DNA of 35,742 nt, from positions 1 through 35,742 of the IMG/VR virus record IMGVR_UViG_3300046808_000500. One strand, given 5' to 3'. Position 1 is the stretch's first letter. Every line of letters starts with the position of its first letter. This DNA comes from a virus. Below, piece after piece: positions 8,200-35,742 of the stretch. The notes beneath the pieces are model-generated. The model saw only the letters and a program-made list of their open reading frames with translations, was not told the origin of the DNA and did not search any database. A program made the position numbers and the translations under genes.

Positions 8200-9235
8200 A
8201 TTCCTCGGTTATAATTTCATCGGTGAATTCACCAACGAGTGATGAGTTTGAGATGGCAAAACGTTCTGTGATCCATTGCTGGAACTCAGCATCCTTCAAT
8301 ATAGGTAGCCAGAACTCACGGGTGTATGTGTCTGCCTGCCGATATTTCTTTTCTTCTCCCTTCTTTTGATACCAACCATTCTGTGGCTTCACAACATGTC
8401 CAGATTCTAGTGCAACATCCAGCAAGCCTGACCATGTACTGATACCACCTTCGAATGATACTTCAACAGGAATCTTACTCTTTTCACGAACATATCGGGA
8501 CTTCTCAACATTGATGATGAAGTTATATCCTGTGATATCCGTTCCCGTCTTTTCTTGCTGACGACCAATGATGAAGATGTTATCAGCCGAGTAATAGATG
8601 CCTGTACCACCAGATACAATATCCTTCGGGAACATACCAATTTCCTTATATGTATGATTCACAACAACCATCGGGATGTCCTTGATGGTCAAGTGAGGCG
8701 TACACATACGGAACAAACTCTTGAGCTGCTTGGCGCGAGTCATGTCAGCTACCGATTTACCTTCTAGCGCATCCTCAACTTCCTTTCGTGACGCCAAATT
8801 ACCCACAGAATCAACAATAATAATAACATGTTCTCCTCGTTCAATACTATTAATCTGAGACATCATATCATGCTTGAGTTGCTCAATGTCAGTAATCGGT
8901 GTGTGAATCACGCGGTCGGTATCAATACCGAAGCTCTTGAAGTATCCCGCCGGCGCGCCAAATTCTGAATCATAAAATAGAATGGCAGCGTCCTCGTACT
9001 TTTCCATATAGGACTTTGCGAGAAGCATGGCGAACGCTGTCTTGAAATGTTTGGATGGACCTGCGAACACTGTCAAACCAGGCGTTAAGCCACCATCAAG
9101 ACGACCTGATAGAGCAACGTTAATCATCGGGACAGGAGTTTGAATCATGTCCTTTGCTGCAAAAAACTTACTATCGGTTAAAATTTCAGTTTCACGAATT
9201 GTACTATTCTTTCGTAGCTTGTTCAATAACGACAT
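8186..9235 (-). CDS. uvsX: UvsX recombinase (RecA-like)
   Basis: The phage strand-exchange protein. It forms filaments on single-stranded DNA and pairs homologous duplexes in recombination-dependent replication. It has 349 residues. Walker A is GPSKHFKT at 59-66, matching T4 UvsX GPSKSFKS in form, and Walker B is HVIIIVDSVGNL. The VVNHTYKEIGMF and VSGGTGIYYSADNI blocks correspond to the DNA-binding loops and ATP cap. The acidic C-terminus is typical of the family. The ribosome site AAGGAGATTAT directly precedes the ATG. It is followed by the linker protein and gp41, and preceded by gp43. Confidence 0.95.
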   Translation of the reverse strand: MSLLNKLRKNSTIRETEILTDSKFFAAKDMIQTPVPMINVALSGRLDGGLTPGLTVFAGPSKHFKTAFAMLLAKSYMEKYEDAAILFYDSEFGAPAGYFKSFGIDTDRVIHTPITDIEQLKHDMMSQINSIERGEHVIIIVDSVGNLASRKEVEDALEGKSVADMTRAKQLKSLFRMCTPHLTIKDIPMVVVNHTYKEIGMFPKDIVSGGTGIYYSADNIFIIGRQQEKTGTDITGYNFIINVEKSRYVREKSKIPVEVSFEGGISTWSGLLDVALESGHVVKPQNGWYQKKGEEKKYRQADTYTREFWLPILKDAEFQQWITERFAISNSSLVGEFTDEIITEEYENA

Positions 9236-9244
9236 ATAATCTCC

Positions 9245-11758
9245 TTAAAATAAATCATCTAAAGTAGCAACTGGAGTTGTTCTCCAGCCTAAACAATCCA
9301 TAACAGTCTTAATCGGTTCCAAGAAACTCTTTTCGAACATTGTAGTATAATCTACATATCTATGTAAGTCAAGCTCTTTTGGTAAAACACCAGAGAAGGC
9401 AATACTATTCTCACGAATAGGATTCGGTTCCTTCAAGTAGAGATATTTAACCTTGTCACCTTCTTTAATCAATTCATATTTCTTATCCAACTTCTTACTC
9501 TTGATATGATGATTGTACAACAGGGCGCCGCGAACGTGAAGTGGCGTTGCCTTTACATAAATTGTAGCTGATGATGAATACTTTGCCAAGTTGTTCGCGC
9601 CTCGCGGAAATGCAATTTCTTCAGGTTCCATCTTCATGAAACGAGCTTCCAAATCAGAAATGAAATTTTGCAATTCTTGTTCAGTAGATGTGAGCGCCAT
9701 CTTCACGGCGTCACGAAGATATTGGCGAACACTACCTGGCGTACTACTCCGAACAATTTCAAGACCCTGAACCTTGAGCTTTGGTTCCTTGTATCGAACA
9801 CCTTCACTGTCATAGACATTCAAGGCATACCGCTTCTTCGCCACCCAAATGGCTCGGTCGGCAATCACTTCTCGCTTGAATTCCATCTTGTTCACATAGG
9901 CATGTGTCTTAGTGGCAATCTCAGCACATGCTGTGTCCAATACTTCTTTAATCTTTTCCTTACACAGCTTGTCAATCACATCAGTGATTTTATTTTTATC
10001 CAAATCCTTCCAATGTGTTTGAACCAAACGATCCAATGTGACATAACAACTATCGGTATCTGAATAGAATGTGTATTCCACATCCTTGGTCTTACACACC
10101 TTGTTCAAAAATTCATTCAAGGCGCGTCCTACATGTTGAATGATATATTGCCCTGTTAACGTGATACCTTCGGCAATTCTGTCATCGTAGAAACGAAAGT
10201 ATTGATTGGCCCAGGCGCCATACAAACTATTCAACTGAATCTTACGAGCCATTTGAATGTTGTTGTATTTGGAAATCAACTTCACCTGTTCAGCATCTTT
10301 CGTCTTTTCATATTCTTTTTGTGCTTCAATCATCTTCTTCTTATAAAACACACGTTCGCTGAAAATCTTTTCAACAATTTCCGGGAACAAGCCTTGATGC
10401 TTTTGTGTGTAACAGAAGCCATTTGCCGCCATGGCAACATCATGGTCAATCAACACATCTTCAAAACTCAATTTGTCATCCAAAAGAATTTCAGGCGAAC
10501 AATCCATGACAACAGAAGAATCCAAAGTCTCAGGCGACATGTTGTACTGCATGATGATGCTAGGATATAGTGAGGCGGCATCGAAACTCACCACCCAATC
10601 ATACTTACCGGGAACTGGTTCCTTCACATAGGCACCTGCAATTGTTCTGCCCTCCTTGTCTTCCTTTTGTTGAACAATGATGTTCTTGTTCCACAAATGA
10701 TTGTACAGAATACAATCCCAGGTTCGCACAGCCGAGAAGATGTCACTAAAGTTACACTTAGCGTCATATGCCATAGTGATAATCAATTCAATCAATTTCA
10801 TCTTATCTTCAAGCGCGTCAACCAGTTCTACGTCAACCACGTTATATTCAACGAACGACTGCCAATCGTTTGTGTAATGGTCTTTGAATGTTTCATAACC
10901 ATGCTCGAGCTTCTTTCTACCCAACTCCTGCTGGGCGATGTAATCGAGCTTATAACTTTCTTGTGCTGAATATGTGAACTTCTTGTACAAGTCCAAATAA
11001 TCCAAACTGCTGATGCCGAAAATATCAGCCGTCAACAACTCACGCCCATTCAACGTAACTGTTCGGTCATTCACAATACGCCATGGCGACAAGTCCTTGG
11101 CTTTGTCATCACCAAGAACACGACGAATTCTTTGTAGAAGATACGGCATGTCGAACAACTGTGTATTCCACCCTGTGATGATATCTGGGGCGGTCATTTG
11201 CCAAAACTTCAAAAACGTTGATAACAAATCCGCCTCATCACGACACCGAATATATTCGAAATTATTCTTGTTTGTGATGTGCTTGATGTTATCAACGTCG
11301 AAACGCTTCACGCCAAACGTAGTAATCTTTTTTGTATTATTATCTTGAACTGAAATCAGGAGTACTTCTTCAATAGGATTTTCAATACTAGGAAATCCAT
11401 ATTCAGAACCTGTCTCAATATCTAGTGTAAGAATAGTGAGTTGGCTGATGTCATAATCCACTTCAGTGGGAAAATTTTCTGTGATGTATTGATAGGCATA
11501 TGATGTATTGCCGAAGATGGGAAAGTTTTCCACATCCTTGTACTTCTTCACAAATTCTTTGGCGTCATTGATATCGCCAAACTTAATCGGCTCTAGATTG
11601 TCTCCAAAAAGGGAACTGTACTTGCTTTCTCCCTTGGACTTGATAAACAACGTGGGGCGAAACTCCACTTTGTGCGCATCTTTCTTGCCATTCTTTACCT
11701 CTCGGACAAGAACCTTGTTGCCGTACTGCAAGACATTCGTGTAAAAATTCTTCATCAT
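9245..11758 (-). CDS. 43: DNA polymerase gp43 (family B)
   Basis: The replicative polymerase with proofreading, 837 residues (T4: 898). Exo I TLDIETGSEYG has D113/E115, Exo II is TGWNTQLFDMPYL and Exo III is YNVVDVELVDAL. Polymerase motif A is DAASLYPS (393-400), motif B RKIQLNSLYG (505-514) and motif C YSDTDS (565-570). KKRYALNVYD lies in the thumb-proximal region. The C-terminus ends TPVATLDDLF, a clamp-binding type tail like that of T4 gp43. Two adjacent ATGs are possible; the second (11755) gives MKNFYTN, which matches the T4 start. The gene is intact. The preceding frame runs 176 bases into it, probably because of a single-base frameshift in that gene. Confidence 0.97.
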   Translation of the reverse strand: MMKNFYTNVLQYGNKVLVREVKNGKKDAHKVEFRPTLFIKSKGESKYSSLFGDNLEPIKFGDINDAKEFVKKYKDVENFPIFGNTSYAYQYITENFPTEVDYDISQLTILTLDIETGSEYGFPSIENPIEEVLLISVQDNNTKKITTFGVKRFDVDNIKHITNKNNFEYIRCRDEADLLSTFLKFWQMTAPDIITGWNTQLFDMPYLLQRIRRVLGDDKAKDLSPWRIVNDRTVTLNGRELLTADIFGISSLDYLDLYKKFTYSAQESYKLDYIAQQELGRKKLEHGYETFKDHYTNDWQSFVEYNVVDVELVDALEDKMKLIELIITMAYDAKCNFSDIFSAVRTWDCILYNHLWNKNIIVQQKEDKEGRTIAGAYVKEPVPGKYDWVVSFDAASLYPSIIMQYNMSPETLDSSVVMDCSPEILLDDKLSFEDVLIDHDVAMAANGFCYTQKHQGLFPEIVEKIFSERVFYKKKMIEAQKEYEKTKDAEQVKLISKYNNIQMARKIQLNSLYGAWANQYFRFYDDRIAEGITLTGQYIIQHVGRALNEFLNKVCKTKDVEYTFYSDTDSCYVTLDRLVQTHWKDLDKNKITDVIDKLCKEKIKEVLDTACAEIATKTHAYVNKMEFKREVIADRAIWVAKKRYALNVYDSEGVRYKEPKLKVQGLEIVRSSTPGSVRQYLRDAVKMALTSTEQELQNFISDLEARFMKMEPEEIAFPRGANNLAKYSSSATIYVKATPLHVRGALLYNHHIKSKKLDKKYELIKEGDKVKYLYLKEPNPIRENSIAFSGVLPKELDLHRYVDYTTMFEKSFLEPIKTVMDCLGWRTTPVATLDDLF

Positions 11759-26797: not shown

Positions 26798-27161
26798 AAA
26801 ACCTCGTTACCTGTAAAATTTTTTCAATTTGTTTTTGTATGATATCTTTACGGTTAGGCCAGTGAATATATTCTTTATCAGGATTCTTCTGGAGATTGTA
26901 AAGAAGCGGTAGAATCATTTGTTCAACTTGCTGTAATTTCCCCCTAACTTCTGATGTGAGTAATTCCTTATGTTGTTCAATTAAACTTGAAGTGTCACCT
27001 GTGGTCAATTCTTCAAGTTTCATTTCCAATAATGAAATTTTATCTAATAGCTCACTTTTAAATTCTGTATCTACAGCAGTTTGTGTAGGTACGGGTTCTG
27101 AAGTAGAGGAATCATTGTCCTCAAATGTGAACCCAAAATCGAAATCATTGCTTTCTAGCAT
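26790..27161 (-). CDS. Conserved coiled-coil protein
   Basis: A 123-residue protein with an acidic start (MLESNDFDFGFTFEDNDSS), a leucine-rich coiled coil (SELLDKISLLEMKLEELTTG) and a conserved end (NPDKEYIHWPNRKDIIQKQI). The DFDFGF opening and the DKEYIHWPNR block recall a family from marine T4-like phages that often lies near these genes; no function is known. It overlaps the deformylase by 17 bases and the ClpP-like gene by 8, so the three are coupled. Confidence 0.65.
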   Translation of the reverse strand: MLESNDFDFGFTFEDNDSSTSEPVPTQTAVDTEFKSELLDKISLLEMKLEELTTGDTSSLIEQHKELLTSEVRGKLQQVEQMILPLLYNLQKNPDKEYIHWPNRKDIIQKQIEKILQVTRFYD

Positions 27162-27687
27162 TCTTCATCCGTTTTAATTGTTTCACCTGCTTCTTTCGCA
27201 TCTTGTTCAACTCATGCTTCAATTTAAAGTTTGAGGCGTGATATGTAAAGTTAATTCCTTCCATGTGGTCATATTCATGTAGAACGATACGGGCAGGGAC
27301 GCCTTTGATAGCGATAGTTTGTATCACTCCCTTTTCATCTTGATATTCCAAGGCAATTTCAGCAGGGCGGCGGAGAGTTAATGTGAATCCTGGAAAAGAT
27401 AAACATCCTTCCTCTATAGCAACCTCTTCTTTGCTGGCGCCAATGATGTTGGGATTGAACATGGCAAATCGTTTTTCTTCATTGCCAAATACAAACATCC
27501 GATATGGCAACCCTACTTGATTGGCAGATAGCCCCACACCACCTAACTGAAGCATCTTCTTATATAGAACGTCCACTAATTCTTCAGCCTTGTCTCCATC
27601 CTTTTCAAAGTCAAAGGCAGGCGGACGAACATTCATACGGGGGTCTGCAAAATGAATCAATTCCAATTCGTCAATATTAAAATTCAT
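27145..27687 (-). CDS. def: Peptide deformylase
   Basis: Removes the formyl group from nascent proteins. It has 180 residues with the three family motifs: GVGLSANQ at 50-57, EGCLS at 93-97 with metal ligand Cys95, and HEYDH at 137-141 (two His ligands and catalytic Glu138). The C-terminus is longer and strongly basic (MRKKQVKQLKRMKNARKQ), where most phage forms end soon after the active site. In cyanophages the enzyme is thought to help process photosystem proteins; here the benefit is unknown. A late-type box lies 26 bases upstream and GAGG precedes the ATG. Confidence 0.95.
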   Translation of the reverse strand: MNFNIDELELIHFADPRMNVRPPAFDFEKDGDKAEELVDVLYKKMLQLGGVGLSANQVGLPYRMFVFGNEEKRFAMFNPNIIGASKEEVAIEEGCLSFPGFTLTLRRPAEIALEYQDEKGVIQTIAIKGVPARIVLHEYDHMEGINFTYHASNFKLKHELNKMRKKQVKQLKRMKNARKQ

Positions 27688-30477: not shown

Positions 30478-30924
30478 TTATCCCTCGTAGATTGCTGAAT
30501 TCGCTCCATGTTCAAACACTTCTACACTCTTTAACCGAACACGCCCATTGGTCTGTTCCAGAATGGTTGTACAAATATCTGTATACACAATCTCAGCAAA
30601 ACGTTCACACCCTACACTATCCAGAATTCGAAGTGTGCAAACACCAAGAGCATCCAACTCCTTGAAGTTATCTAAATGCGGGTCATCGGCAGAAACAACT
30701 GTTGTATGGTCAAACAGTTCTTCCAAATAACTCTTGATCCATCCTGTATTACCGAAATCATATACCCAATTTCTTTCATCCAAAGTATCAGCTTCAAAAA
30801 TGAAGTGAAAGCCTAAACTATATCCATGAATTTGATTACAATGTGACTTGGCTCGCCATTGACGAAACGCGCAACTAAATCCACGGTCATTACCATAAGT
30901 CTTTGTTGAATAGTATTTCGGCAT
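30478..30924 (-). CDS. queD: QueD-like 6-carboxytetrahydropterin synthase (variant)
   Basis: A 148-residue T-fold enzyme; in the 7-deazaguanine pathway QueD converts dihydroneopterin triphosphate to 6-carboxytetrahydropterin. The start at 30924 follows GAGGTAAT. The block ERNWVYDFGNTGWIK (50-64), FDHTTVVSADDPH (71-83) and VEVFEHGANSAIYE (134-147) are clear. The zinc site is not canonical: the usual F-S-A-A-H reads FSCAF and the usual C-x3-HGH reads CNQIHGY, so only His33 (and perhaps His28 or His40) matches. I recall the same variant in other phages. It is followed by gp47 and preceded by the glycosyltransferase. Confidence 0.85.
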   Translation of the reverse strand: MPKYYSTKTYGNDRGFSCAFRQWRAKSHCNQIHGYSLGFHFIFEADTLDERNWVYDFGNTGWIKSYLEELFDHTTVVSADDPHLDNFKELDALGVCTLRILDSVGCERFAEIVYTDICTTILEQTNGRVRLKSVEVFEHGANSAIYEG

Positions 30925-30925
30925 A

Positions 30926-31951
30926 TTACCTCGCAAGTTTGCTGTACATGATGTCTGCATTTAAATATTGTAAAGCTAAGATACCACGTTGATGTTCTAA
31001 ATCCTTTTGATACTTCTCGTAATTTACTATCTTGTCCTGTATAAAGTCAAGTAGTAATTGCTTATTTGTGAGGTAATTATCATAGGAGCTTGTCCACTCA
31101 GAAGGATATTTAAATTGATTTAAATACATTTCCGAATAACTGCATCTATCTGGGACAACAGGAATGGCTCCTGCCAAACATCCTTCCATTACACTGATAC
31201 CAAGATTCTCATGTAATGCACAACTGAAAATCACCTTTGCTGACCCTAACGTCTTGTAGTATCCTTCTTTGGATAAAGACATCTTTTGTGTAATCACCAC
31301 GTTTAATGCGTCCGACAAATCAACCGCGATTTCAGGTTGTTTATCTGAATTATATCTATGAGGCCACATCACCACATCTTTCTTCTCATCATTGATGTAA
31401 TTTGCCAACCGTGTGATGTTTTGTTTATGTGGCTGACCACTGCGAATTGCCTTGTTTCTATCAACAATATTTAAATTGTTCAAAAACATTTCCTTATGAA
31501 ATTCAGTGGCAAAGTAATTGTAATCACATGCGTTATACCAGGCAATTTCTTGATTCACCGCCCAATCGCCCATCTTCATACCGAGAATGTCAGAGGGGTC
31601 ATAATGACCGGCATGCCAGATGCCATGAATCTCAACAGGAATTTCCAACAAGTCACTCATGTAACGAATGGCAGTAACAGCAAAGTTCCAGGCATCCGTG
31701 ACAAGAAACTTATCACCAGGCTTCACCTTGCCATTTTGAAAATGTAACGCGATGGCTTGAATCTGTGATGCCTTGTATGCATTCGTAAATGCAAAGTTTA
31801 AAAAGGCACCTGAAGTGGTGTTGTTCGTGCTTTCCAATCCATCAATAGTAGTAACTTCCAATCCTTTTTCTTGTAAATCATTAGGAATGTTTTCATACCA
31901 TTGCTTCGTGTATCGTTGGTCAATAGGTTCAATAGGTACAATGAAAATCAT
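30926..31951 (-). CDS. GT-B glycosyltransferase, resembles queuosine-tRNA mannosyltransferase
   Basis: A 341-residue two-domain GT-B protein. The donor-side half has VVMWPHRYNSDKQPE (193-207), ALHENLGISVMEG (245-257, with the E-x7-E pair Glu248 and Glu256) and PVVPDRCSYSEMY (264-276). These three blocks resemble the WPHRWEHDK, HEFFGV-MLEA and CPDRL-YPE segments I recall from GTDC1/QTMAN (DUF3524), which puts mannose on queuosine in tRNA. The N-terminal acceptor half (HGIWHAGHYDPSDILGM, 109-125) is less clear. The gene lies inside the run of 7-deazaguanine genes and shares ATGA with the small T-fold gene, so its acceptor may be the modified base in DNA (inference). A general GT4-type enzyme acting on another acceptor is the alternative. 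Confidence 0.72.
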   Translation of the reverse strand: MIFIVPIEPIDQRYTKQWYENIPNDLQEKGLEVTTIDGLESTNNTTSGAFLNFAFTNAYKASQIQAIALHFQNGKVKPGDKFLVTDAWNFAVTAIRYMSDLLEIPVEIHGIWHAGHYDPSDILGMKMGDWAVNQEIAWYNACDYNYFATEFHKEMFLNNLNIVDRNKAIRSGQPHKQNITRLANYINDEKKDVVMWPHRYNSDKQPEIAVDLSDALNVVITQKMSLSKEGYYKTLGSAKVIFSCALHENLGISVMEGCLAGAIPVVPDRCSYSEMYLNQFKYPSEWTSSYDNYLTNKQLLLDFIQDKIVNYEKYQKDLEHQRGILALQYLNADIMYSKLAR

Positions 31952-32322
31952 GTTACACTCCCCATAGGACTGTATTGAAGGATGGCACCGTTTTCTCCAT
32001 CCTCGCTAACACCTACTTCGATATAACGACCTGGATATTGTTTAGAAATATAATCAATCAAATCCTCGGCAATCATTTCACAGCTCTTGTAATCAAGCAA
32101 GAACAATTGGTCGTTATACAATGCCTCAAGTTCACGTTTGAACATGATGAATTCAATGTCTCGGTCATTATGTGTTACTGAGACACGCACACGGAAATGA
32201 AAAATATGGCGATGAGGATAACCAAGAAAACTCACAGAAATTAACCGAGGGTCTTCCAATGCTGCGGGATACTTATGAATACCTTCGCGCTGAAATGTCA
32301 CTTCAATGTATCGTAAAATCAT
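31948..32322 (-). CDS. Small QueD-related (T-fold-like) conserved phage protein
   Basis: A 124-residue protein. YPHRHIFHFRVRV (35-47) and IEVGVSEDGENGAILQY (101-117) mirror the His cluster and the E-x-G-A/N end of QueD-like T-fold proteins, and LLDYKSCEMIAEDL (75-88) provides a Cys and Glu in the middle. I recall this family in many phages, usually as hypothetical. It may be a distant 6-carboxytetrahydropterin synthase relative or a non-enzymatic partner. Its ATG overlaps the dpdA stop (TAATG) and its stop overlaps the glycosyltransferase start. Confidence 0.65.
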   Translation of the reverse strand: MILRYIEVTFQREGIHKYPAALEDPRLISVSFLGYPHRHIFHFRVRVSVTHNDRDIEFIMFKRELEALYNDQLFLLDYKSCEMIAEDLIDYISKQYPGRYIEVGVSEDGENGAILQYSPMGSVT

Positions 32323-33575
32323 TAGAAATCCTCCGGTAATGTTGCTGGTAATCCATCACGAATAGGTTGACTCGACAAATATACTCCCACTTCCTTTTCC
32401 CAGTGCTTGAAATCTTCCATGGTCTTCACTTGACGGAATGCATCCATGGCTGATACTTCTCTATCATTCATCAGATGTTGAATTTGCATAAAGTCCTTTG
32501 ATACAGTATCCACATGACGCATGAAATTCATTGTTGATGCCACAAAGAAGGCACTGAAGGCTTCGATGGGCGGTAGAAATTCACCGTTATGTTTTCTCTG
32601 ATATGCTCTCACAGGAATGTTCATGGCTTCATGAAAGAATCTATCATCTACAACATAATCTGTTACCACCTTACGAATATCTTCATTAATCATAATATAA
32701 TCAGGACCAAAATCTCTGCCTGGTGTTACCCATTCAAAGTTGGGACCATAATACCGACCCATCTGAACACCTGAGGTATGAGTTGTACTATCATAACTAA
32801 TCCAAATATCTTTATGATATGCGCCACTCTCCTTCATTGCCAGAATAGGCACAAGGCGAGACAATGACCCTACTCCCAATAAGTGGAGATGATGATTGTT
32901 TTCTGCGAGGGGTATTTGTGAATAATAAAATGCTCTCTTACAATCTTCAAGTGTTCCTGTGCCTAATGCCACGGCGCCCATCGCCACTCCGCCGATACGT
33001 TCATGTAGCTCCTTCGGAATTTCTTCCAAAGCCAACTCCACCCACCGAACATAGGTGTCACAATCGGTGCCTTGAGCAATAAACATGGGCTTGGCATCTG
33101 AACCCATCTTGATGAACGTTTCAATCTGGTCACGAACATTCTTTCCAGATTCACGCGCGCACCATTCAAACTTTTGTCTATCAAAATATTTGTTACTGGT
33201 ATCTGAACGAGCTGAACGTGTTCCCACCAATGAAACGGGAATTTCATCAAAGCTCATGGCACAATCCGAATACTTACCTTGATTGGTGTACACATCCTGC
33301 TTCAATTGTGGTGTGATGGTTTTGCCCAATGTAATCATTTGCAAGCCACCTGAGTCAGCATAAATTTGCTTTACGCCATGACCACGATACACATTATAAA
33401 AGAAATCTCCAAATTCCTTTTCAATAAAGGCATTGTACAAAAAGGAGAATTCGTGGTTGTGTTGCCCACGAAGTAATGACCAGATATGATTCAATCTGTC
33501 AGATGTAGGTTTCCTATGTGACTCAGCAAATCGAACGCGCAAAAAGGATAATCCTGATGCAACATATTCAAACAT
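32322..33575 (-). CDS. dpdA: DpdA-like DNA (guanine) transglycosylase, TGT family
   Basis: A 417-residue protein of the tRNA-guanine transglycosylase superfamily. In phages and in genomic islands DpdA swaps guanine in DNA for a 7-deazaguanine such as preQ0. YADSGGLQ gives Asp74 in the position of the TGT general acid/base. HLLGVGSLSRLVP (231-243) is the substrate-binding strand. WISYDSTTHTSG gives Asp262 as the likely nucleophile, with the sequence context of DpdA rather than a tRNA enzyme. A tRNA-binding zinc site (CxC, CxxC) of classical TGT is not visible, which supports DNA as the target. FolE and a QueE-like enzyme precede it, and two QueD-like proteins and the glycosyltransferase follow. 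Confidence 0.88.
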   Translation of the reverse strand: MFEYVASGLSFLRVRFAESHRKPTSDRLNHIWSLLRGQHNHEFSFLYNAFIEKEFGDFFYNVYRGHGVKQIYADSGGLQMITLGKTITPQLKQDVYTNQGKYSDCAMSFDEIPVSLVGTRSARSDTSNKYFDRQKFEWCARESGKNVRDQIETFIKMGSDAKPMFIAQGTDCDTYVRWVELALEEIPKELHERIGGVAMGAVALGTGTLEDCKRAFYYSQIPLAENNHHLHLLGVGSLSRLVPILAMKESGAYHKDIWISYDSTTHTSGVQMGRYYGPNFEWVTPGRDFGPDYIMINEDIRKVVTDYVVDDRFFHEAMNIPVRAYQRKHNGEFLPPIEAFSAFFVASTMNFMRHVDTVSKDFMQIQHLMNDREVSAMDAFRQVKTMEDFKHWEKEVGVYLSSQPIRDGLPATLPEDF

Positions 33576-33577
33576 AA

Positions 33578-34090
33578 TTAACTCCCAAGAATTTGAATCA
33601 AATGATTAGCCTGATGTTTTGCATCATCTAATGCATTATGATAGGTACCTTCACGTGGCTTTTGAGGAATTTGAATCACTTCCTTCATGGTTCTGTAACA
33701 TCTATCATCCCAAGGTGTCCAAGGACGTTTCATTCCTACCGCCTTGTAGGCGTTTTCAATAATCACATTATCAAATCCTGCACCACACCCCCATGTGGGC
33801 AATGACTTTGTGCCATACCACTTGGAAAATGTTGTCAAGGCATCTTGTAGTGGAACATTGTTCCATCGTAGCTCTTCTAATACTTCTTTTGGTTGCTTTG
33901 ACCACCAACGTACTGTATCTGCTGAAATAACTAATCCATGTTTCTTGCAATCGGCTGCATCAACCGTGCAGTAAAATTCATCAATGATACCCTCATCTAA
34001 TGAAAACTTTACTGCACCAATTGAACAAATGGCAGCGTTGGACTCGGTGCTCATGGTTTCCAAGTCCAACATGACATTTAACATTTTCAT
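33578..34090 (-). CDS. DEDDh 3'-5' exonuclease (DnaQ/RNase T-like)
   Basis: A 170-residue exonuclease with the DEDDh set: MLDLETMS (Asp9, Glu11), AGFDNVIIENAY (Asp107) and HNALDDAKHQ (His151, Asp156). RWWSKQPKEVLEEL is the RNase T/exonuclease VIII-type segment. T4 has a comparable exonuclease, DexA. Its place between folE and dpdA may be by chance, or it may trim unmodified or host DNA. The start shares TAATG with the folE stop. Confidence 0.88.
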   Translation of the reverse strand: MKMLNVMLDLETMSTESNAAICSIGAVKFSLDEGIIDEFYCTVDAADCKKHGLVISADTVRWWSKQPKEVLEELRWNNVPLQDALTTFSKWYGTKSLPTWGCGAGFDNVIIENAYKAVGMKRPWTPWDDRCYRTMKEVIQIPQKPREGTYHNALDDAKHQANHLIQILGS

Positions 34091-34791
34091 TACTTGATAA
34101 GGTTCATGAATTCTGCACGAAGGGCAGGATCCGTCTTGAAATTACCACCCAACTTACTAGTAATGGTGCTTGAATCTGGATCCTCGACGCCACGTGCCTT
34201 CACACAGAAATGTTCAGCGTCAATCACAACTGCCACATCATCCGTTTCAAGGATGAATGCCAGTGCATGATAAATCTGTTCTGCCAAACGTTCCTGTACT
34301 TGCGGGCGGCGTGAGAAATATTCCACAACACGATTCAACTTGGACAATCCAAGAACCTTCTTACGTGGAATATATGCTACGTGAGCTACACCACTAATAG
34401 TTACGAAGTGATGTTCACAGCATGATGTGACGTTGATTCCCTTTTCAAGAACCATCTCATCATAACCCATCTTGTTTTCAATTGCTGTACACTTTGGAAA
34501 CATTGCGGGGTCAAGACCCCAAAACAATTCATTGACAAACATCTTGGCGACACGACGAGGACTATCCTGCAAACTATCATCAGTCAAGTCCAAACCCAGA
34601 ATCTCCATGATTGCTGTAAAATGCTTTTCAATCTTCTTCACCTTTCGGTCAGAGAACTCACCTGTTTCTAACACAGGTGTTTCAACACCCAGAGATTGAA
34701 GATGCTTCTGAACCTTCAATCCTAGCTCGGGGTCACACTTACCTAAAGCGTTTCGGATAGCATTTGCGTTATACCGCTGCTGTGACTTCAT
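34090..34791 (-). CDS. folE: GTP cyclohydrolase I (FolE)
   Basis: Converts GTP to dihydroneopterin triphosphate, the first step towards 7-deazaguanine (and folate). It has 233 residues from the ATG at 34791 (GGGAGATAAT upstream; a TTG four codons earlier is less likely). CCEHHFVTISGVAHVAYIP gives the zinc Cys125 and His128, and DAEHFCVKARGVED gives Cys196. GLSKLNRVVEYFSRRPQVQE (148-167) is the conserved substrate segment. TSKLGGNF completes the family signature. The first 40 residues are less conserved. QueE lies directly upstream and dpdA one gene downstream. Confidence 0.95.
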   Translation of the reverse strand: MKSQQRYNANAIRNALGKCDPELGLKVQKHLQSLGVETPVLETGEFSDRKVKKIEKHFTAIMEILGLDLTDDSLQDSPRRVAKMFVNELFWGLDPAMFPKCTAIENKMGYDEMVLEKGINVTSCCEHHFVTISGVAHVAYIPRKKVLGLSKLNRVVEYFSRRPQVQERLAEQIYHALAFILETDDVAVVIDAEHFCVKARGVEDPDSSTITSKLGGNFKTDPALRAEFMNLIK

Positions 34792-34792
34792 A

Positions 34793-35698
34793 TTATCTCC
34801 CAATTACGTTGCCAAAGACATAACAATGATTTCGTGTGGCAACATTATATCCACGATTCATTGCTTCAATACACAAATCACCAATATCAGTTTGTTCCTG
34901 TGCATCTTTTGTAGCACCAACGGGCATCACCCATACATGGGGCATGTACCGCCCACATAGTAACTTAATGTTATTTAGGTGATTGTCAAGTTCATTCCAA
35001 TTTTCTTCTGTTCCATTACATACAAACTTCAAAATGGAAGTACTATTGGTAAGAGCATAATCATAAATGTTCTCACAATTTACCACATTCTCCTCACCTG
35101 AAACAGTGAACAATTTCGGACTCATTGACCAATGCCAACGACTTCTACCAGGACCGAGGAAAGGAAATTCACTTGAAAGAAAATTTCGTAATTCATCGGA
35201 GAGAGGGCGAGTTGCATTAGTTTCAACTGTAACAAGTTGAGGGGCGTTATTTCTCCTATGCAATTCACGAATGATTTCAATCATCGCCTTTTGCTGCATC
35301 ATAGGTTCACCACCAGTGAAACACAACATGATGTTCTGCTTTGTCACGGGATGAACAAACAAGCCTTCAGGATTATGCTTGCTTTTATTTGCCTCAATCA
35401 ACCGGTCAGCAATTTCTGCGGGTGAGGCATCATGTGCTAGATGCTTGTACTTCTGTGACCAAGAATAGGAACTATCACAACCATACTTCCAAACAGGAAG
35501 TTGATTCACATCATTCACAGATGTGGTGTCAAATGTTTCATATGGTAGAATCCATGTTGATGGGTCTGTGGGATTCGTTTGACCAAACCCATTACAATTC
35601 AAATTACATCCAAAAAAACGAAGCCAAACGGAAGGAGTTCCTGCCAGTTCAGCTTCGCCTTGGAATGAGTAAAATATTTCTGAGTATCGAATACGCAT
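34793..35698 (-). CDS. queE: QueE-like radical SAM 7-carboxy-7-deazaguanine synthase
   Basis: Converts 6-carboxytetrahydropterin to 7-carboxy-7-deazaguanine using a [4Fe-4S] cluster and SAM. I place the start at the ATG at 35698 (MRIRYSEIFYSFQGEAELAG); GTG and ATG codons 2-3 positions upstream are alternatives. WLRFFGCNLNCNGFG supplies two of the cluster cysteines (Cys34 and Cys38, numbered from the longest form). The third is probably in KYGCDSSYSW (Cys77), so the spacing is C-x3-C-x38-C instead of C-x3-C-x2-C. I recall the same layout from other phage enzymes. CFTGGEPMMQQ (SAM site) and VTVETNATR follow. The pathway genes folE and queD are in the same cluster. Confidence 0.87.
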   Translation of the reverse strand: MRIRYSEIFYSFQGEAELAGTPSVWLRFFGCNLNCNGFGQTNPTDPSTWILPYETFDTTSVNDVNQLPVWKYGCDSSYSWSQKYKHLAHDASPAEIADRLIEANKSKHNPEGLFVHPVTKQNIMLCFTGGEPMMQQKAMIEIIRELHRRNNAPQLVTVETNATRPLSDELRNFLSSEFPFLGPGRSRWHWSMSPKLFTVSGEENVVNCENIYDYALTNSTSILKFVCNGTEENWNELDNHLNNIKLLCGRYMPHVWVMPVGATKDAQEQTDIGDLCIEAMNRGYNVATRNHCYVFGNVIGR

Positions 35699-35742
35699 AA
35701 GCATCACCAGGTAATTATAAAGAAATAGGTATATGACTGAAT

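Follow-up and report, generated by a model that had tools for sequence, protein, structure and literature searches.

What does a glycosyltransferase do in the middle of a gene cluster for 7-deazaguanine DNA modification? The question is raised by a 35.7-kb virus fragment from IMG/VR (35,742 nucleotides, here called the window), at whose right end the minus strand encodes, in order, queE, folE, an RNase T-like gene, dpdA2, a small T-fold gene, a glycosyltransferase (GT) gene and queD, followed by gp47- and gp46-like genes (Table 1). The gp46/gp47-like genes, together with the gp55-like and UvsW-like genes described below, suggest that the window comes from a T4-like phage. In phage DNA, sugars have been described on derivatives of cytosine and uracil, and 7-deazaguanines occur there as well; dCDG and 7-deazaguanine bases have reportedly been found. 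A literature search that covered few subscription papers returned no report of a glycosylated 7-deazaguanine in DNA. We consider the best explanation of the locus, at a probability of about 0.7, to be that the GT decorates a 7-deazaguanine in phage DNA with a sugar, which would most likely be a hexose.

Table 1. Features of the modification cluster, with positions in the window and the basis for each assignment.
Feature	Position	Strand	Basis
QueE, 7-carboxy-7-deazaguanine synthase	34793..35707	-	phrog_2076 2.2e-46; PDB 4njg 2e-5; NCBIfam QueE models
FolE, GTP cyclohydrolase I	34090..34803	-	Pfam PF01227 1.1e-62
RNase T/Rv2179c-like 3'-5' exonuclease inside the operon	33578..34090	-	Pfam PF16473 2.6e-46
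DpdA2-type DNA guanine transglycosylase, DSGGLQ and SYDSTT	32322..33575	-	phrog_10773; alignment with nt-1 DpdA2; TGT motif match
Small T-fold (QueD-like) protein, 124 aa	31948..32322	-	phrog_17812 4.4e-34
GT4-type glycosyltransferase with QTMAN-like C-terminal domain, 341 aa	30926..31951	-	ORF, model, Foldseek, hhalign
E248-x7-E256 retaining GT4 catalytic/donor motif (HENLGISVMEG)	31184..31210	-	invariant in 51 sequences; D/E-x7-E also in QTMAN
P267-x-R-x-x-Y-x-E274 signature (PDRCSYSE)	31130..31153	-	common to QTMAN
QueD, catalytic Cys/Asp/His kept	30478..30924	-	Pfam PTPS 1e-16; phrog_2389 3.6e-38; corrected start

An earlier note on this DNA had described the GT as a GT-B protein carrying WPHRYNSDK, HENLGISVMEG and PVVPDRCSYSEM; we confirmed that its 341-aa reading frame is intact and contains all three. 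The start/stop overlaps that it saw with the QueD-like genes probably hold on one side only: the T-fold stop and the GT start share the four bases ATGA at 31948-31951, but 30960 is probably not the true queD start, as homologues start at the M of MPKYYSTKT, and the preferred ATG (30924-30922, with AGG upstream) lies one base past the GT stop. Similarly, dpdA belongs to the same operon as the GT but stands one gene apart, the T-fold gene intervening. FolE, QueD and QueE are all encoded in the cluster, and QueC was found neither in the operon nor in the whole of a 177,878-base relative (G001). Contig L141, nearly identical to the window and with an identical DpdA, extends about 1.2 kb beyond the window end and carries, upstream of queE, genes that by eye were named as a sigma factor like gp55 and part of a UvsW-like protein, so that no queC is hidden just past the edge. 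By eye, the window QueE is longer by about 40 residues from its second cluster cysteine to its third (CNLNC...GCDSSYSW). Elsewhere in the window, positions 27145-27687 hold a peptide deformylase gene (Pfam 4.7e-34).

In an alignment of 51 relatives with 42-72% identity to the window GT, residues H113, H198, R199, K204, E248, E256, R269, Y272 and E274 are invariant; because these relatives keep both the residues and the gene company, the GT is not a chance reading frame. The AlphaFold model built on this alignment (mean pLDDT 93.7, pTM 0.90), used in place of a single-sequence prediction with a pLDDT of 31.8, has the two Rossmann-like domains of the GT-B fold. Foldseek matched the model to GT-B/GT4 enzymes, with E-values down to 2e-10 and with BshA, MshA and glycogen synthases as the best matches in a PDB set without a QTMAN structure. 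E-x7-E is the usual motif of retaining GT4 enzymes. In the profile search against GT4 proposed earlier, the window GT reached Pfam Glycos_transf_1 only weakly, at E 0.06 (13.3 bits, below the 26.4 cut-off); 14 of the 51 relatives match that family at E 0.01, the best at 5.4e-5. Sequence and model together indicate that the window GT is an intact and probably active GT4-type enzyme. A PDB sequence search with the GT profile gave no trustworthy match, a plasmid search gave no match, and in Pfam the window GT matched no DNA glucosyltransferase family; a Pfam match to Rsbr_N was judged to be chance.

The GT had previously been likened to the GTDC1/QTMAN (DUF3524) family of queuosine-tRNA mannosyltransferases. 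DUF3524 is now Pfam QTMAN_N (PF12038) and covers the N-terminal half of QTMAN; we gathered 12 bacterial QTMAN proteins through PF12038 and aligned them. The GT-family profile matched the QTMAN profile at 98.3% (P 1.8e-14), and hhalign placed the GT family against each of the 12 proteins at 94-98%. None of the 22 control ORFs, which comprised generic GT4s (WaaG, GlgA, BshA-like), heptosyltransferases and non-GT neighbours and included LPS and glycogen GTs, exceeded 7.5%. This likeness resides in the C-terminal donor halves (98.8%, P 5e-17; control C-halves at most 11.9%), whereas the N-terminal halves gave no alignment (0.5%, P 0.12), and the Pfam profile search found no QTMAN_N match in the window GT or in any of the 51 members. 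Moreover, the combined motif [ED]x7E...PxRxxYxE occurs in 50/51 GTs and 12/12 QTMAN proteins and is missing from every control ORF. The family likeness therefore stands for the donor half, but the assignment to DUF3524 does not: as the half that defines QTMAN_N is absent, the GT should not be filed as QTMAN, and by sequence it is akin to QTMAN on the donor side without being a member.

GT-B enzymes hold the nucleotide sugar in the C-terminal domain and the acceptor in the N-terminal one, and a similar donor half joined to an unlike N-terminal half is consistent with a donor like that of QTMAN and another acceptor. The resemblance to a queuosine-tRNA mannosyltransferase makes GDP-mannose the first donor candidate, a guess by analogy that we hold to be somewhat less than an even bet. 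The N-terminal domain yields no family clue at the sequence level. QTMAN and the window GT thus have in common the GT4 C-terminal domain, E/D-x7-E followed by PxRxxYxE, and a link to 7-deazaguanine; they differ in the acceptor domain, which is unrelated by sequence, and in that the partner of the window GT is a DNA transglycosylase in phages devoid of QueC and QueF.

The window DpdA aligns with DpdA2 of Vibrio phage nt-1, in whose DNA 7-deazaguanines have been measured (PMC6884629), at 28% identity over 100% of the query (3e-30). Among aligned DpdAs, D74, S75, G76, G77 and Q79 of DSGG(L/F)Q and D262 of the nucleophile Asp region are invariant. A second, PA5oct-type DpdA is homologous to the window type (98.2%) and both keep DSGG(L/F)Q; a PDB sequence search with the PA5oct-type profile gave no trustworthy match. 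IMG/VR holds at least 580 relatives of the GT, from which 80 loci were examined. Combined with the window, its re-fetched copy L007 and 6 annotated phage loci, they make 88 sources, of which 82 have the T-fold gene with the GT, 73 FolE, 58 QueE and about 75 a DpdA (of the window type in 12, of the PA5oct type in 63). Genes of 7-deazaguanine clusters accompany the GT in 238/241 loci. These counts, and those for QueC below, include many related contigs, some entered more than once, in a common replication-module setting and so do not represent independent trials. When loci were instead anchored on DpdA2, with at least 4 kb on either side, the GT was present in 39/42 and the T-fold protein in those same 39. 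Complete GT-bearing genomes encode a DpdA too, and the linkage recurs in several phage groups that are unrelated to one another and represented by complete genomes. Gene order varies among the window, Phosso, Paride/PA5oct, ACP17, X1 and BUCT-ZZ01, implying that inherited gene order alone does not account for the linkage. The gene company in relatives thus bears out the original placement of the GT inside a 7-deazaguanine DNA cluster.

The association extends to bacterial genomes, mostly of Alphaproteobacteria, in which the GT and a DpdA-like gene are direct neighbours and folE and queE are lacking; a queuosine-precursor-transporter-like gene and a tyrosine recombinase often lie close by. Seven alphaproteobacterial contigs (L095, L096, L098, L099, L100, L103 and L108) show this pairing of GT and DpdA-like gene without folE/queE, several with a Vut_1/queuosine-precursor-transporter-like membrane protein and most with a small tyrosine recombinase. 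From their gene content, these islands appear to be a bacterial mobile-element version of the system.

QueC and the GT are almost mutually exclusive. In the stretches examined, QueC lies beside the GT in 1/241 fetched loci, the exception being Xanthomonas phage PhiXhv-15, where it takes the form of Gat-QueC. The 3/42 DpdA2 loci without GT also lack the T-fold protein, and all 3 carry QueC. At the level of whole genomes, a full QueC is missing from the GT-positive phages Phosso, Paride, ACP17, X1 and BUCT-ZZ01, and the GT-negative DpdA2 phages nt-1, pf16 and YB07 have one; short, partial matches to the QueC profile turn up far from the cluster in a few metagenomic contigs with the GT. QueF is absent from the complete GT-bearing relatives. 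Five phages, Cellulophaga phiST, Rhizobium RHph_I1_18, Vibrio Bakedbeans, Vibrio D479 and Aeromonas Ahp1, have the T-fold protein but no GT, and QueC is absent from 4/5 of these, with only a partial match in D479. It therefore seems, from gene content, that the T-fold protein, mostly together with the GT, takes over at 7-carboxy-7-deazaguanine (CDG) where other phages use QueC, the two acting on the CDG branch in place of preQ0 synthesis. With no full QueC and no QueF, and with QueA, QueG and QueH reported absent from viruses (PMC6884629), such a phage is unlikely to make the cyclopentenediol of queuosine. The acceptor of the GT is probably a CDG-derived base, rather than queuosine.

The alignment of the T-fold protein with QueD spans its length, and the equivalents of the Zn-ligand triad His16/31/33 and of Glu110 are retained, but the catalytic Cys27/Asp70/His71 of QueD (CPH4 synthase) are lost, and its profile matches E. 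coli QueD weakly (hhalign 42.9%, P 2.5e-4); judged by these residues, it is not a normal QueD. A PDB sequence search with the T-fold profile gave nothing trustworthy, and bacterioferritin matches there and a Pfam match to DUF6137 were judged to be chance. The phage QueD shows the reverse pattern, with Cys27/Asp70/His71 kept and, in most members, two of the three metal-ligand histidines lost (HGY for HGH; Phe or Tyr for His16). As each protein keeps what the other lost, we considered a QueD/T-fold hetero-oligomer with a split active site, and dropped it because PhiXhv-15 has the same QueD type and no T-fold match in its record. In Vibrio phage Bakedbeans (L305:7233-8384), the T-fold protein forms the rear part of a fusion whose N-terminal domain, about 260 aa long, is unrelated.

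We infer from these genes a pathway in which FolE, QueD and QueE would convert GTP to CDG, which, for want of a phage QueC, the phage would not carry on to preQ0. The T-fold protein would act on CDG or present it, DpdA2 would swap guanine in DNA for the CDG-type base, and the GT would move a sugar from a nucleotide sugar to that base, in DNA or just before insertion; a sugar so placed might protect the DNA against restriction. Several points count against this explanation. Among them, the host QueC may supply preQ0, and CDG offers no obvious hydroxyl as acceptor, so that the sugar would have to be esterified to the carboxylate, or the T-fold protein would first make another handle. A CDG decarboxylase has reportedly been proposed for phiST-like phages. 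Should the T-fold protein be that decarboxylase, the sugar needs an unusual attachment; should it not be, the sugar is likely to sit on the carboxylate or on something made from it. We regard as unlikely, though worth stating, a novel linkage in the form of an acyl (ester) glycoside on the CDG 7-carboxyl, or, were the T-fold protein to take off that carboxyl, of a sugar bonded through carbon at C7, with the GT-DpdA pair also modifying the DNA of bacterial mobile islands. We know of no nucleic acid with such a linkage.

The order of the last two steps bears on a rather improbable alternative, in which the GT puts the sugar on the CDG-type base while this is still free, or on its nucleotide, ahead of insertion by DpdA, and not on DNA. 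The tight coupling of the GT to DpdA and base synthesis would suit this order, as would its top structural matches, BshA and MshA, which are GT4s with small-molecule acceptors; however, QTMAN, the closest relative by sequence, acts on a base already in tRNA, and the known phage DNA glucosyltransferases act on DNA. It is considerably harder to maintain that the GT mannosylates queuosine or its precursor in tRNA as QTMAN does, the cluster serving to boost tRNA modification: despite the donor-half similarity and the queuosine-precursor-transporter-like genes that adjoin the GT in bacterial islands, its constant partner is DpdA and not a tRNA TGT, the QTMAN_N half is missing, and so are QueC and QueF from complete genomes. 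That the GT is an ordinary surface-modifying (LPS, capsule, serotype) enzyme sitting in the replication region by chance is very improbable, for although the GT4 fold is common to such enzymes, WaaG, WaaB and the other control GTs score far below QTMAN, and the company of 7-deazaguanine genes persists through several gene orders in those 238/241 non-independent loci.

Glycosylation of 7-deazaguanine in DNA, which we prefer, can be set against several known systems. The DpdA2 modification of phage nt-1 (PMC6884629) shares FolE, QueD, QueE and a homologous DpdA2 with the window, but there QueC is present where the window has the GT and the T-fold protein. The alpha/beta-glucosyltransferases of T4, which produce glucosyl-hydroxymethylcytosine, would follow the same logic of a phage sugar on a modified DNA base; here the base would be a 7-deazaguanine. 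QueC-less phages such as phiST share the T-fold protein with the window but, unlike it, have no GT of this family. BshA and MshA, UDP-GlcNAc GT4s of bacillithiol and mycothiol synthesis, are the best Foldseek matches (6n1x, E 2.1e-10), and BshA pairs with BshB much as the PhiXhv-15 family member stands behind a PIG-L deacetylase; they differ from the GT in their low identity to it (11-13%), in the thiol pathway, which the window lacks, and in that a deacetylase adjoins the GT in only one phage type.

On the preferred reading, the DNA of these phages probably contains a sugar-bearing form of guanine that is not known to have been described. If this is right, it would account for many 7-deazaguanine phages without QueC, a large class, and the so far unassigned protein family phrog_17812 would gain a function; a common ancestry would also be suggested for the donor domains of a DNA- and a tRNA-glycosylating enzyme. 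As the GT family is common, with its several hundred IMG/VR relatives, and occurs in isolated phages, the claim is testable now. The PA5oct genome sequence is 286,783 bp (PMC6950013), and its DNA runs at about 375 kb in a pulsed-field gel (PMC3936114); bulky DNA could cause such slow migration, as could terminal redundancy or gel calibration.

Further genes recur in these clusters. Proteins of about 170 aa, encoded in most cases between dpdA and the T-fold gene, form a family present in 43/88 sources (for example L008:8484-8999 and L004:6233-6718) and absent from the window; it has no convincing Pfam match. A phosphoribosyltransferase (L002:10324-10758 and 53 others; L308:3456-3917), annotated as the xanthine-guanine type in Synechococcus phage BUCT-ZZ01, may salvage the guanine released by DpdA. 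BUCT-ZZ01 has two GT4 genes (L308:5373-6716 and 8364-9530) flanking dpdA and the T-fold gene, and a disaccharide on its base is conceivable.

PhiXhv-15 encodes in a row (L006:5609-9695) Gat-QueC, annotated as a GlmS-like aminotransferase, a PIG-L deacetylase, a distant GT-family member (5.9e-28) and a GFO_IDH oxidoreductase, with GNAT and Leu/Phe-tRNA transferase genes upstream. By gene content this looks like a separate hypermodification cluster, and the GT beside Gat-QueC shows the family in the company of 7-deazaguanine genes also where the pathway takes another branch. The PIG-L deacetylase was rejected as a general GT partner, since PhiXhv-15 is the one phage in which the two adjoin; another genome has a single match, not linked to the GT. 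Finally, the DpdA2 cluster of Stenotrophomonas phage YB07 has between folE and queC a gene annotated as inositol-1-phosphate synthase (L311:2508-3758), a possible sign of another hypermodification.
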